This document shows, one piece after another, positions 5,944-61,190 of a stretch of 64,000 bases of DNA. Location of the stretch: positions 1-64,000 of the forward strand of contig MKGP02000066.1 of assembly GCA_001913845.2 (NCBI GenBank). Direction: 5' to 3'. How positions within the stretch are numbered: position 1 is the first letter of the stretch; the number at the start of each line of letters is the position of its first letter. The stretch comes from Limnothrix sp. CACIAM 69d (GTDB taxonomy: Bacteria > Cyanobacteriota > Cyanobacteriia > CACIAM-69d). The position numbers and the translations under genes are program-made. A model generated the notes under the pieces. The model was not told the DNA's origin. It worked only from the letters and a program-made list of their open reading frames with translations, and did not search any database.

Positions 5944-6070
5944 GAGGATGTCTGAGAAGTATCTTGCAGTACGGGCTAAAGGTTAATGGTCGTGGAAGGG
6001 GCTTAAGCCCCTTGTCTACATCGATCCCTGGGGCGTACAGAGTAGTAATTTGGGCTTTTCAGACATCCTC
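5944..6070. mobile_element. MITE-like palindromic element (family A, copy 1)
   Basis: A 127-bp non-coding element with inverted ends GAGGATGTCTGA / TCAGACATCCTC and a central 18-bp palindrome AAGGGGCTTAAGCCCCTT at 5996-6013. It is flanked by TAA on both sides (5941-5943 and 6071-6073). The left TAA is the stop codon of the histidine kinase, so the element begins immediately after it. Its reverse complement aligns closely to the element at 46744-47013, and a diverged relative sits after aspS at 20173-20303. The central hairpin could terminate transcription of the convergent genes on both sides. Confidence 0.8.
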
Positions 6071-17912: not shown

Positions 17913-18154
17913 CTGGCTGAACCGACATTTGAGGGCGAATGATTCACCGCGAGACAGGGCGATCGCAACAATCCTTTACAATCGATCTGGGTGATCGGGT
18001 TGGGTTCCGCTCCTTGCTGGTTGTCGGGAAATCGCGGCATTTCCCAGCGGGCCGCGCCGCGCGATCGGGGTAGGATATTGGACTTGCACCCCAGCGCATT
18101 TGCGTTTCGTCAAGATTTTTGCGGACTGGCGCAACCGTTACGAGAGGCTTGGGG

Positions 18155-18287
18155 CAAGGGGCCGTTAATCGCCTAAAACCCTGATCCGCCTGTGCGAAAT
18201 CGTGGGGAGCAAGGGACAGTCGATTACCTGTAACCCTGATCCGCCCGTGCGAAATCGTGGGGAGCAAGGGGCTTAAGCCCCTTGTCT
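18155..18287. repeat. 55-bp tandem duplication plus palindrome (family B-related repeat)
   Basis: Two adjacent 55-bp units (18155-18209 and 18210-18264) each begin CAAGGG and share CCCTGATCCGCC and GTGCGAAATCGTGGGGAG. They are followed by the palindrome CAAGGGGCTTAAGCCCCTTG at 18265-18284. The units resemble one arm of the 142-bp element at 46811-46952. The repeat fills much of the 454-base gap between the GMC gene and aspS (17913-18366), where no gene is seen. Confidence 0.75.
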
Positions 18288-45609: not shown

Positions 45610-46683
45610 TCAGCCGGAACGGGCCAGGCTGCCGCTGCGTTCCACCAAATGCAGGGCGATCGAGCTGAGGGGGAGCACCTGTTTGGCCGCGCCCAGCTCG
45701 ATCGCCGCTCGGGGCATTCCAAACACCACGGAACTGGCCTCATCTTGGGCGATCGTCCAGCCGCCCGCTTGGGACAGTTCCAACAGGCCCTTTGCGCCGT
45801 CGTTGCCCATGCCCGTCAGTAAAATCCCGATCGCCCGCTTGCCAAAGACCCGAGCCATGGAGCGAAAGGTGGCCGTCACCGAGGGGCAATGGCCATCCAC
45901 CGGTTCCGTGCGAAAGGTGACGAACCGCCCTTGCAGATCAAACTCCAACTGGTGACCTTCCGGCGGAAAGTAAATCACGCCCGGCTGGGGAGTTTGGCCC
46001 GCTTGGGCAATTTGAATCGACAGCGCGCAATTGAGGCTGAGCCAATCCAGCAACCCCCGCAAGAAGCCCGTGCTGATATGTTGCACGCAAACCAGCGGCA
46101 GGGGAAAACGCGATGGTAATTGGCTCAAAATCTCCCGCAGGGCCTGGGGGCCGCCCGTGGAAGCGCCGATCGCCCCGATCGCCCGTTCGATCGCCGGCCC
46201 CTGCACCAGCGCCGACGGTAGCGCGATCGTCGGTGACGGCGAGGGGGATGACGATCGCCGCAGCTTGAAAACCTTCACCCCCGCCAGCACCCGAATTTTG
46301 GCAATTAACTGGGCCGCCACTTGGGCATATTGTTCCGGCGAACTCATCACCGGTTTGGGAAACACATCCACTGCCCCCGCCTCCAGCAACTCAAACACCG
46401 TGCGCCGATCGTCTTCGCGAACGGAGTTGCTGATCACCAAAATGGGCCGGGGCGATCGCCCCATCACCTCACGGGTAAATTCCAGCCCATTCATGCGCGG
46501 CATGTGCAAATCCGTGCAAATCACATCGGGAGCGGTGGCTTTCAGGAGTTCCAACCCCTCCAGTCCCGTGCGGGCCGTGCCCACCACTTGCAGCGCACCA
46601 GTGCTCTCGATCGCCCGCCGCAGGAGTCGGATGGCAATTTCGGAATCTTCAACCAACAGCACTCGGATGGGGGGTGGAGCCAC
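45610..46683 (-). CDS. cheB: CheB methylesterase (protein-glutamate methylesterase/glutaminase)
   Basis: A 358-residue two-domain protein. An N-terminal receiver has the phosphoacceptor in [13 protein letters not shown] (D58). A linker precedes the C-terminal methylesterase with the triad S175 (GASTGGP), H202 (VQHIS) and D295 (GMGNDGA). It demethylates or deamidates chemoreceptor glutamates after phosphorylation by CheA. The GTG at 46683 is supported by AGGGA about seven bases upstream; an in-frame TTG at 46728 is possible. No other che gene is in the window, so it is an isolated cheB just upstream of dnaE on the same strand. A MITE-like element sits upstream of the TTG start. Confidence 0.93.
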
Positions 46684-46743
46684 TGGTATTCCCTGCTTGA
46701 AATTTTGGTGCTGCAAATCGGGAGGCAATTAATCTTTGTCTTA

Positions 46744-47013
46744 GAGGATGTCTGAAAAGCCAAAATTGCTACTCTGTACGCCCCAGTGATCGACTTAGAC
46801 AAGGGGCTTAGGGCCTGTCGTCAAATCGCCTGAAACCTTGATTCCGCCGTTGGCAGATCGTGGGGGACAAGGGGCTTAAGCCCCTTGTTACAACGACTGG
46901 GACATGGAAAATCAGTCGTTTCCGCCCGATCCTAGGAAATGACGACAGGCCCTAAGCTCCTTCCACGACTATTGATGCTTGCCCGTGCCAAAGAATACTT
47001 TTGAAACATCCTC
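46744..47013. mobile_element. MITE-like palindromic element (family A), split by a second element
   Basis: Inverted ends GAGGATGTCTGAAAAG and CTTTTGAAACATCCTC (the second partly degraded) enclose a sequence closely matching the reverse complement of the element at 5944-6070. The flanks are TTA on both sides (46741-46743 and 47014-47016). Removing the inserted 142 bp plus one TA copy leaves 126 bp, almost the same length as copy 1 (127 bp). The insertion falls within the central palindrome, GGGGCTTA on the left and TAAGCTCC on the right. Confidence 0.82.
46811..46952. mobile_element. MITE-like element (family B), inserted in a family A element
   Basis: A 142-bp non-coding sequence bounded by perfect 13-bp inverted repeats GGGCCTGTCGTCA / TGACGACAGGCCC and flanked by TA direct repeats (46809-46810 and 46953-46954). 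A palindrome CAAGGGGCTTAAGCCCCTTG lies in the middle. TA target duplication is characteristic of IS630/Tc1-mariner-type transposition. No transposase is present in the window. Partial relatives are seen at 18155-18287 and 57523-57576. Confidence 0.82.
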
Positions 47014-47180
47014 TTATTCTTTGTCCTATGCCTATTGTCGCAAATTTCTTGGGATTTGAAGCTAAAATCAGCAAGGATTTAATCAATTAGCCGATTCGTT
47101 GGCCGACCATTTGTCGATTGTTTTTTGAGATTTTGATCCTGCTTGAGCCATTGCTTTTTGGAAGACAATGATTCTGCTGC

Positions 47181-48164
47181 CTAGTTTTTTTGGAACAGCA
47201 AACAGAGTTCAATCGCCTTAGATTGCAGCGTTTCGATCGGGTCGCTGCCCCGCTTCAAGAGGGTTTCTTGCTCCAAGAGAAGCTGGAGGCTTTTTTGAAG
47301 TGCTTTGAGTCCCATGGGTTGCACTTCTTTCTTAATGAAAAATAGTCGCTTGGGGTTCCCCAAATCCGCCGCCTTGGCAATCACCAAATCATCCCGCTCG
47401 CCCCGATCGAGCATCAGCTTCACCCACAGCCACAGCCGAAACTGGGTGACCAAAGAAGCATGAATCCGTAAGGGATTTTCATTCCGGGCAATCAAATCCG
47501 CAATCAGCTTCAAAGCTTGGGAAATTTGCCCCAGGGAAATGGCCTTCGCCAGCTCCAAGCTGCTTTGGGTGGAAACGGAAACTAGGCGATTGATGTCTTC
47601 CGTACCGATCGGGCGATCGCCCACAAATAATTGCAGCTTTTCCAGCTCGCTATGGAGTTGGCGCGTATTGTTGCCCACCGCATTCACCAACAACTCCGCC
47701 GCTTCGGGTTTAATTTTCACTTTCATCGCTTGGGCGGCCCGTTTCACCTGTTGCAACAGCTCCTCGGTTTTCCAGGGAGGAATCGGGGAAAATTCCTGAA
47801 TTTCGGTGTTTTTGGCCTTCTGGAGCAATTTGGTGGACTTGAGGCGGCCATCGGGCTTTGGGCGGGAGGTGAGCAGCAAAATGGCATTGTCGGGAATTTG
47901 GGGCAGGGTGCGTTCCAACTCCCGCAACCAATCGTCGGGACAGCGTTGGGCCAAGGCCGTTTCCGCCAGCCACACCAGCCGATCGCCCGCCCCAAAGGGA
48001 GGAGTCACCGCCTGGGCCAGGGCCGCCAACAGGCCATCCTCGCGATCGGGCGGGATTTTTTCAAAATTAAAACTTTCCCAGGCGGCATCCACGCGCGATC
48101 GCAACGGGTCGATCGCCCGCTGCATCGCAAAATCATCCTCACCCCAAAACCAATAAACCGGCAT
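47181..48164 (-). CDS. holA: DNA polymerase III delta subunit
   Basis: A 327-residue clamp-loader delta subunit. Visible family features are the N-terminal MPVYWFWGEDDFAMQRAI, the AAA-type core with NAILLLTSRPKPDGRLKSTKLLQ, and the lid region ELLVNAVGNNTRQLHSELEKL. The C-terminal collar part contains LIARNENPLRIHASLVTQFR. It opens the beta clamp together with the tau/gamma and delta-prime subunits. The ATG at 48164 is selected over the upstream frame (to 48200) because the family starts with this hydrophobic GE-type block. It lies 66 bases downstream of pyrB on the same strand. The region 47014-47180 after it has no gene. Confidence 0.93.
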   Translation of the reverse strand: MPVYWFWGEDDFAMQRAIDPLRSRVDAAWESFNFEKIPPDREDGLLAALAQAVTPPFGAGDRLVWLAETALAQRCPDDWLRELERTLPQIPDNAILLLTSRPKPDGRLKSTKLLQKAKNTEIQEFSPIPPWKTEELLQQVKRAAQAMKVKIKPEAAELLVNAVGNNTRQLHSELEKLQLFVGDRPIGTEDINRLVSVSTQSSLELAKAISLGQISQALKLIADLIARNENPLRIHASLVTQFRLWLWVKLMLDRGERDDLVIAKAADLGNPKRLFFIKKEVQPMGLKALQKSLQLLLEQETLLKRGSDPIETLQSKAIELCLLFQKN

Positions 48165-48230
48165 TTTGTTAAATGGTGGCGCAGTTAAACGGTGGCGCAC
48201 TTGCCCCCGGATGTGTGACTGGAGAATGGG

Positions 48231-57369: not shown

Positions 57370-57522
57370 GGGGAGTTGACTCCAGTGATTTCGTGAACAA
57401 TTCGATGATCAGCCGAAATCGCTGAAACGTGTTCTGAGTAAGCTGTCTGGCTTTTGTTTGACTGTCTGAGTTTTGTCAAAGACATCGATCGCCCATGCGA
57501 TCGCGCTGGGCGGCGAGGTCGT

Positions 57523-57576
57523 TGGGGGCAAGGGACTGAAGCCCCTTGTTACGATGGTTGAGACATGGAAAATCAG
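57523..57576. repeat. Remnant of family B palindromic element
   Basis: The stretch around CAAGGGACTGAAGCCCCTTGTTAC and a following GACATGGAAAATCAG match the centre and right half of the 142-bp element at 46811-46952. The 13-bp terminal repeats are missing. It sits in the promoter region of the accessory cassette (57370-57617). Confidence 0.7.
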
Positions 57577-58805: not shown

Positions 58806-61190
58806 ATGGCCCTCTACGAACGATCGCTGAAAGCTACGGTAGCCGGTTGCGAAAAGCTGGCTGAAGCCCTGAAACAGAGTCGCTACAACAAAAGCTCGAT
58901 CGGGGATTTTGTTCAGTACCGCAAGCGGGATGACAAAGAAGACCAAGGCGTATCGCGAGCGACGATCGCCAAGGCTTTTAAGGGCGAACCGGTCGATCGG
59001 GGAATTTTTATTGGTTTGTGCGATCTGCTGGGGCTGAATTGGCAGGATGCTGCTGAGTTAGAAACTAGCGAGCCGCCTGCTCCGAACGTGGCATCGGATG
59101 CAATCGATGTGGTGTGGGTGCGATCACAGGTGGAGGCAGATTTGCGGCGGCGGTGCGGCACGATGCGGGTGCTGGACATGGAGCAGCCGATCGCCATTGG
59201 TACGATTTACACCCAAGTAAATGTACTAGAAAAGCTGACGGCCAATCAGCGCCTCAGCTCATCGGAACTATTGGGGAATTTGGATGGAATCAAGGACTTT
59301 GATCGGCTTTGCTTAGGCAAAGTTCGCCAAGGGAAAATCTCAGGATTAGAAGCTGTTACTCGGCATAAAGCACTGATGGTTTTGGGGCGGCCGGGTGCGG
59401 GCAAAACTACATTTTTGAAGTATTTGACTATTGCTTGTTTAGATGGAGAATTTCTTGGCGATCTTGTCCCCATTTTTGTGACGCTCAAGGAATGGACAGA
59501 ATTTCCGGGTGAGCCAAGCTTACTGAGCTTTGTATCGCGGCAGTGGTCAGATTGTGGGATTGCGGATGCTGAGTTGGTTCTGAATCAATATCTGAAAAAT
59601 GGTCAGGCGTTGGTCTTGTTGGATGGGCTGGATGAGGTGTTGGCAGCTCACACGGATAGGACAATCCGAGAAATTCGGGATTGGGGCGATCGTTTCCCCA
59701 AAAATCACATTCTCGCTACTTGCCGGATTGCTGCTAAGGAATATACCTTTGAGCGCTTTACCGAAGTAGAAGTAGCAGATTTTTCAAAAGAACAGATTCG
59801 AGAATTTATCACCAATTGGTTTACCCATCACCAAGACCTACCCAAAATTGAACGATTTCTCAATCGCCTGAAAAAGGAGAAGCCAATTTTAGAGCTAGCT
59901 AGCAATCCGCTGTTGCTGACCTTACTTTGCTTGGTGTTTGGCGAAAGTGGTGATTTTCCGACGAATCGCGCCAAGCTCTATGAAGAGGGCGTAGATCTGT
60001 TGCTGAAAAAGTGGGATGGTAAGCGCAATATTCAGCGCGATCAAATCTATAAGAATCTGTCAGTTAACCGCAAAGAAGATTTGCTCTCACAATTGGCGCT
60101 GGCAACTTTTCAAGAGGGAGACTATTTCTTTGATCGGCGAGTGGCTGAAGATCAAATCACGGCTTATATCCATAATTTGCCGGATGTCAAGGACGATCCT
60201 GAAGCTTTGCGGTTAGATAGCGAAGCAATTTTGCGCTCGATTGTGGCTCAACATGGCTTACTCACGGAACGAGCACGCGGAGTCTATTCCTTTTCACATT
60301 TGACCTTTCATGAATACTTTGCAGCACGGGAAATTGCCGCTGGTCAAAATTGGCAAATCTTAGCTCAACACTTACCCGACAAATCTTGGCGCGAAGTCAC
60401 CTTGCTAGCGGCCAATAGTGTTCGACAGGGCGATGAATTGCTGCTGACTTTGAAGCAGGAAACTGACTATCTATTAGCTGATGATCCACAATTGCAGGCT
60501 GTTTTAGTCTGGGCAACTGAAAAAGCAAAATCAGTGCAAATGTCCTACAAACTGCACGCAGTAATTGCCTTCTACTTCGCTCTCGCTCTCGATCGCGCTC
60601 GCGCTCTCGCTCTCGCTCTCGCTCTCGATCGCGCTCTCGCTCTCGATCTCGCTCTCGATCTCGATCTCGATCGCGCTCTCGATCTCGATCGCGCTCTCGC
60701 TCGCGCTCTCGCTCTCGCTCGCGCTTTCGCTCTCGATCACACTCTCGCTCTCGATCGCGCTCTCGCTCTCGATCGCACTCTCGGTCGCGCTCTCGATCGC
60801 GCTCGCACTCTCGGTCGCGCTCGCCAGCTAAAAAAACAAGACTTGGTAGATCAACTAGCTAATCTACAACGCCAATTGAAACCCATCAAAAACTTATTCC
60901 AGGAGCAGAAAATAGAATGGTGGAGAAATGAAGGACAAGAATGGATCAGATCTTTACGAGATGCGATGGTTAAGCATCGAAATATTGGCCACGATTGGCA
61001 ATTTTTTGATCAGCAAAAGGAACTTTTACAGAAATATCATGCTGCCAATTTGCGGTTGGCAGAATGCTTGAATACCGATTGTTATTTGTCCCGAGAAGTG
61101 CGGCAAGACATCGAAGCCACAATGCTGCGCCCGATCGCCCAAATTGAGGCCTACTACGCCGCCAAAGGCAAACCCTATCCACCCGTTTAA
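58806..61190 (+). CDS. NACHT domain NTPase with HTH-like N-terminus
   Basis: A 794-residue STAND-type protein. The N-terminal ~90 residues contain a helix-turn-helix-like region (SRATIAKAFKGEPVDRGIF). The NACHT core has Walker A GRPGAGKT (194-201), Walker B LVLLDGLDEV (D273, D276, E277) and the winged-helix-like region GVYSFSHLTFHEYFAARE. From 592 to 673 runs an A-L/D-R repeat encoded by a hexamer array. The C-terminus has helical WWRNEGQEWIRSLRD-type sequence. Bacterial NACHT proteins include anti-phage effectors and regulators. No obvious effector domain is fused here. It starts 68 bases after the nucleotidyltransferase gene, and the nuclease-like gene follows after 4 bases. Confidence 0.9.
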   Translation: MALYERSLKATVAGCEKLAEALKQSRYNKSSIGDFVQYRKRDDKEDQGVSRATIAKAFKGEPVDRGIFIGLCDLLGLNWQDAAELETSEPPAPNVASDAIDVVWVRSQVEADLRRRCGTMRVLDMEQPIAIGTIYTQVNVLEKLTANQRLSSSELLGNLDGIKDFDRLCLGKVRQGKISGLEAVTRHKALMVLGRPGAGKTTFLKYLTIACLDGEFLGDLVPIFVTLKEWTEFPGEPSLLSFVSRQWSDCGIADAELVLNQYLKNGQALVLLDGLDEVLAAHTDRTIREIRDWGDRFPKNHILATCRIAAKEYTFERFTEVEVADFSKEQIREFITNWFTHHQDLPKIERFLNRLKKEKPILELASNPLLLTLLCLVFGESGDFPTNRAKLYEEGVDLLLKKWDGKRNIQRDQIYKNLSVNRKEDLLSQLALATFQEGDYFFDRRVAEDQITAYIHNLPDVKDDPEALRLDSEAILRSIVAQHGLLTERARGVYSFSHLTFHEYFAAREIAAGQNWQILAQHLPDKSWREVTLLAANSVRQGDELLLTLKQETDYLLADDPQLQAVLVWATEKAKSVQMSYKLHAVIAFYFALALDRARALALALALDRALALDLALDLDLDRALDLDRALARALALARAFALDHTLALDRALALDRTLGRALDRARTLGRARQLKKQDLVDQLANLQRQLKPIKNLFQEQKIEWWRNEGQEWIRSLRDAMVKHRNIGHDWQFFDQQKELLQKYHAANLRLAECLNTDCYLSREVRQDIEATMLRPIAQIEAYYAAKGKPYPPV
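60579..60824 (+). repeat. Hexamer repeat array encoding an A-L/D-R repeat inside the NACHT gene
   Basis: About 41 consecutive hexamers, mainly GCTCTC (Ala-Leu), GATCGC (Asp-Arg), GCTCGC (Ala-Arg) and GATCTC (Asp-Leu), cover 246 bases. Because the unit is 6 bases, gains and losses keep the frame. The opposite strand is also open and would read as an S/E repeat, a by-product of the array. The GATCGC unit matches the HIP1 core common in the genome. Confidence 0.95.

Follow-up and report, generated by a model that had tools for sequence, protein, structure and literature searches.

Within the 64,000-nt stretch of Limnothrix sp. CACIAM 69d analyzed here (the window), one small inverted-repeat element lies inside another and splits a palindrome at its center. 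The question that this locus raises is how the inner element came to occupy this exact point, whether by one event or by many, and what kinds of transposase would have moved the two elements.

Anatomy of the nested element

The nested structure is real and far beyond chance. The composite (46744 to 47013, plus strand, 270 bp) is a family A element interrupted by a family B element, and a second composite is found at C20:122-385. The window composite is intergenic, outside both neighboring open reading frames (ORFs), which lie on the minus strand and by eye resemble a response regulator/methylesterase of the CheB kind (45610 to 46728) and a DNA polymerase III delta-like protein (47181 to 48200). 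The A element starts with the left terminal inverted repeat GAGGATGTCTGAAAAG (46744 to 46759, plus strand) and closes with the right one (46998 to 47013, minus strand; CTTTTGAAACATCCTC on the plus strand), the terminal arms reaching 17 nt and 88% complementarity when one flanking base per side is counted. Outside them stand the two TTA copies of a TNA target duplication (46741 to 46743 and 47014 to 47016). Inside, the palindrome is divided into a left half, AAGGGGCTTA (46801 to 46810, with TA at 46809-46810), and a right half, TAAGCTCCTT (46953 to 46962, one mismatch, with TA at 46953-46954), both on the plus strand. Between them lies B (46811 to 46952, plus strand), which has perfect 13-bp inverted repeats (GGGCCTGTCGTCA/TGACGACAGGCCC).

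The original prediction of a 142-bp element with perfect repeats and TA flanks nested in A is therefore accurate, as is its arithmetic: excision of B with one TA (270-142-2) leaves 126 bp, compared with 127 bp for the second A copy of the window (5944 to 6070, plus strand), whose palindrome is unbroken at 5996 to 6013. The same palindrome that B splits in A is also present, intact, in the middle of B (AAGGGGCTTAAGCCCCTT, 46869 to 46886), as a further potential landing site. The original prediction mentions neither this copy nor the TTA duplication of A, nor that the palindrome is dispersed in the genome. Related sequence occurs elsewhere in the window: two 55-bp tandem units similar to B's left arm, with the palindrome after them, at 18151-18285, and a degraded B-like fragment with a mutated palindrome at 57504-57576. 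A dense tandem repeat with spacings of 18 and 12 bases lies at 60524-60876.

Two families with different target duplications

Both families are short, non-coding and multicopy, with terminal inverted repeats and target duplications, as is typical of MITEs, and the distinction of two families of non-coding inverted-repeat elements is supported. In the genome (4.57 Mb, 100 contigs), substantial matches to B number about 40, and the nested A+B arrangement is matched several times. The B end GGGCCTGTCGTCA, allowing one mismatch, is found 139 times versus 5 for a reversed-pattern control, so the further copies with the same 13-bp ends that a mobile family was expected to have are indeed there. TA flanks both sides of B in 46 complete copies (142 bp, 13-bp repeats); this TA target duplication is that of IS630/Tc1-mariner elements, and is shared by other families too. 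We compared these sites with those of a congeneric sister species (G002), which is 96% identical around the window site. At C53:14648, where the present genome (G000) carries a B, the orthologue is uninterrupted, with a precise single-TA empty site. B has thus been recently mobile, as originally proposed, and the activity of A or of A+B is recent too. The B ends also delimit a longer subfamily, of about 188 bp (L052, L053, L058 and L088:9638-9825), several copies of which likewise lie in the palindrome. At G000:C100:15736-15885 (L116) and its G002 orthologue (L180), B occupies the same TA in opposite orientation between the species, which implies either an in-place inversion or a TA that was hit twice.

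For family A we collected 45 copies, with 16-bp inverted repeats and, in most uninterrupted ones, a length of 127-131 bp. Identical 3-bp flanks are present in 26 of the 45, and all 26 have the form TNA (TTA 10, TAA 8, TGA 5, TCA 3). The site orthologous to the window locus in the sister species is empty of both A and B and holds a single TNA (...CTTTGTC-TGA-TTTTTTGTCC... versus ...CTTTGTC-TTA-(A+B)-TTA-TTCTTTGTCC... in the window). Because of this 3-bp TNA duplication and the single-TNA empty site, A resembles elements of the IS5/IS1031 type and not IS630/Tc1-mariner, which duplicate TA. The IS1031 subgroup of IS5 uses a TNA target with a 3-bp duplication, and one of its members ends in GAACCTGTCTAG (PMC12016507), which the A end GAGGATGTCTGA resembles. 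With this subgroup (e.g., ISLrh, PMC12016507), A also shares ends of the form GAnnnTGTCT (GAGGATGTCTGAAAAG in A). Unlike it, A has no transposase gene, and a cognate donor was not found.

A resident IS5-family element shows similar behavior, its right end being followed by TNA in six of the six junctions seen. Another genus of the family (G004) has a full 925-bp relative, flanked by TTA/TTA, whose two overlapping ORFs match the IS5 transposase model NF033580. As the inner terminal bases of the resident element differ from those of A, we regard it as an analogue and not as a proven donor. One of the six junctions lies within the left repeat of A at C20 (G000:C20:1-121), and the resident element also stands directly beside a copy of A at C49 (L079), both times at TNA.

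Candidate transposases were sought with profiles of five Pfam families: PF13358 (IS630), PF13586, PF13359, PF01609 (IS5-type) and PF01797 (Y1). In this 100-contig draft, which tends to break at insertion sequences, the matches to these families revealed no element ending in the repeats of A or B, and a sample of whole stretches of about 0.86 Mb (19% of the genome) showed no autonomous partner with such ends. The inverted-repeat pairs of 0.3-2.6 kb with A/B ends were seemingly two separate short elements, except for the one at C69:44276-44981 (L010:1069-1774), a 706-bp stretch bounded by A ends and flanked by TAA/TAA, within which lie a nested composite and further sequence. From the target duplications, the transposase acting on A would be of the IS5/IS1031 type, and that acting on B would be of either the IS5/IS427 or the IS630 kind, since a 2-bp duplication is common to both: it is reported for the IS5/IS427 group (PMC3281130) and, specifically as TA, for IS630/Tc1-mariner (PMC2170065). 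No member of either with the ends of B was found, hence we file B under neither.

The original prediction attributed both families to IS630/Tc1-mariner-type transposase activity in trans, with B inserted in place into the A of the window, and this combined reading now seems improbable. The part concerning B stands insofar as B duplicates TA, as IS630/Tc1-mariner elements do (PMC2170065), although this also fits IS5/IS427, and the genome has three matches to PF13358. None of these three, however, has A or B ends around it; other copies of an IS630-type transposase may lie in assembly gaps. For A, the reading is refuted by the TNA duplication, and an in-place insertion at the window is made unnecessary by the sister composite at C20.

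The palindrome as a repeat family and as the target of B

The palindrome was originally described as the center of A, and it does lie there, but it is a separate dispersed repeat family. AAGGGGCTTAAGCCCCTT with at most one mismatch matches the genome 324 times, versus 0 for the control. In the 0.86-Mb sample we found 73 palindromes (up to two mismatches), of which 19 are in A, 15 in B, 14 beside one recognizable A or B end and 25 free-standing, and because of these copies in A, in B and on their own we consider it a third family. The free palindromes are mostly conserved between the present genome and the sister species, and those that are absent have diverged surroundings. Three loci (L086:8068, L092:11716 and L113:19360) carry AAGGGGTTTAAACCCCTT, a variant whose two arms have changed in a matched way, as if the pairing of the arms or their symmetry had been kept.

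This palindrome is the preferred target of B. A palindrome half-site adjoins 13 of the 33 B copies with at least one recognizable end in the sample, compared with 288 of 21,249 other TA sites (1.4%), a 29-fold enrichment; the binomial p value of about 2e-16 treats copies as independent though they are related by descent and is overstated, but the effect is large. Among the hosts of palindrome-inserted B copies are A and, in at least three cases, B itself, along with sites that lack an A or B arm. Outside the palindrome, the sequence around the target TA still tends toward RGCYTARGCY, a weak palindromic pattern, so that the palindrome looks like the optimum of a more general preference.

The exact 18-mer is found in 19 of 386 Cyanobacteriota genomes (control, 0). 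Among the matches listed for the 22-mer ACAAGGGGCTTAAGCCCCTTGT are Leptolyngbya, Pseudanabaena, Phormidium, Symploca and Nostoc, together with Chloroflexi, Spirochaetes and others, and the flanks of the listed loci (L226-L305) are unrelated, with none obviously common. Brachyspira pilosicoli has three copies within one 8-kb stretch. In the plasmid collection, the sole match was a 26-bp palindrome match in Pseudanabaena. A literature text search for the palindrome gave no match and one for the A/B end sequences gave two unrelated matches, while an Rfam scan of 46000-48000 returned no family up to E = 1.

The hallmarks of REP/RAYT systems are a tag (GTAG or CGTC) next to the palindrome and a RAYT gene nearby. 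Here, a GTAGAC-palindrome reading applies to some copies and is missing in many, and the palindrome is absent within about 1.5 kb of the five Y1 transposase (PF01797) matches in the genome. Two RAYT-like Y1 transposase genes (G000:C9:27857-28201 and C29:11737-12078) are palindrome-free over the same distance. As a speculation that we hold doubtful, the 18-22-bp palindrome could be a mobile unit found across several bacterial phyla that was captured by MITEs and then served as a docking site for their self-seeding spread. If so, MITEs that both carry and target the palindrome, such as family B, would spread through each other and through themselves.

Order and recurrence of nesting

The claim that A came first and B later is proven at one locus. 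At C24:221877, B lies inside A, and in the sister species the orthologous site holds the same A, free of B and with its palindrome (ACAAAGGTCTTAAGCCTCTTG) unbroken. The original order is thus right for the composite, but an insertion of B at the window locus itself does not follow: neither element is present there in the sister species, and a sister composite exists at C20, so the composite may have come in as one unit. The two composites are 97% identical and their B elements 98.6%, whereas the next-best B is at 94%. For this pair, the simplest reading has B inserting once and the ends of A then moving the whole composite, in a direction between the window and C20 that we leave unspecified; the ends of A may thus have carried it into the window locus. 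Divergence between the pair is uneven, with 6 differences in 61 positions in the right half of A versus 2 in about 202 elsewhere, which hints at conversion or mixing.

We collected 12 nested A+B composites from the present genome and one congener (G001). B has the opposite orientation relative to A in 2 of the 12, and in a tree of B copies the nested ones are polyphyletic, with nearest relatives that are mostly not nested; the window/C20 pair is the exception in the present genome. Because both relative orientations occur and the nested copies are polyphyletic, B must have reached this point of A in many separate events.

Nesting at other loci had been anticipated as a sign of recombination, which is not borne out, as independent insertions with TA duplications explain it. 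In that alternative, which we judge very improbable, exchange between shared palindromes (homologous recombination or gene conversion) would have brought B into place, with no transposition. A and B do share the palindrome, and tandem palindromes show deletions or duplications between species (L101:4614). However, a crossover within the palindrome would join half-elements, while the inserted B copies are complete and end exactly at their terminal repeats, with TA/TA flanks and the palindrome halves outside, and the single-TA empty site is found outside palindromes as well. These complete, TA/TA-flanked copies are our ground for rejecting recombination. Descent of all nested composites from one spreading A+B composite has next to nothing left to recommend it as a general account and holds for the window/C20 sister pair only, for although composites are themselves flanked by TNA duplications (e.g., TTA/TTA, TAA/TAA and TCA/TCA), the polyphyly and both orientations of the nested B copies and the de novo insertion into an existing A at C24:221877 refute it.

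Proposed mechanism

The overall model in which we have good confidence is that of a composite of two MITEs with differing chemistry, with docking at a palindrome, recurrent entry of B and renewed movement of the composite. A would be mobilized in trans by a TNA-duplicating transposase of the IS5 type (IS1031-like), and B, also in trans, by a TA-duplicating transposase that prefers palindromes, chiefly the central TA of AAGGGGCTTAAGCCCCTT. The palindrome exists independently as a dispersed repeat, present in A, in B and at many unrelated loci, and both A and B itself thereby offer ready-made docking sites for B. B has repeatedly and independently entered one position of A, and the A+B composites are probably mobile again via the ends of A. 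The palindrome may be recognized either as sequence or as a cruciform.

One nested pair thereby becomes a repeated natural experiment, in which a single base pair of a short palindrome took up many independent insertions and a 96%-identical genome provides the empty sites. It allows one to test which property of a palindromic target is read by a transposase, its sequence or a cruciform, and if a MITE gains in speed of spread by bringing its preferred target along.

Comparison with known systems

Target-selective transposition into palindromic repeats is already known, and we do not describe a new kind of element. Very small palindromic dispersed repeats of cyanobacteria were reportedly described by Elhai et al. 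in 2008 inside minitransposons and at nested sites. That study is cited in PMC3116915 and PMC3733652. We liken the present palindrome, whose mobility is conjectural, to these repeats by description only. Insertion sequences that target REP palindromes belong to five IS families, including IS5, with IS1397, ISPpu9, ISPpu10, ISRm19, ISRm22 and others as examples (PMC1525189). Like B, they strongly prefer a single point within a dispersed palindromic repeat, but here the inserter is a MITE without a transposase gene, the target is exactly the central TA, and the palindrome itself is carried by two MITE families. A close precedent is found in Coxiella burnetii, where IS1111 is inserted in the REP of QMITE2 in two MITE copies (PMC10969869), again an insertion into a palindrome within a MITE; there a single IS is involved, while here MITE-in-MITE and MITE-in-itself nesting occur repeatedly. 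What is new is that the targeting element is a MITE, that its hosts are MITEs carrying the target, itself included, and that a single base pair has received many separate hits.
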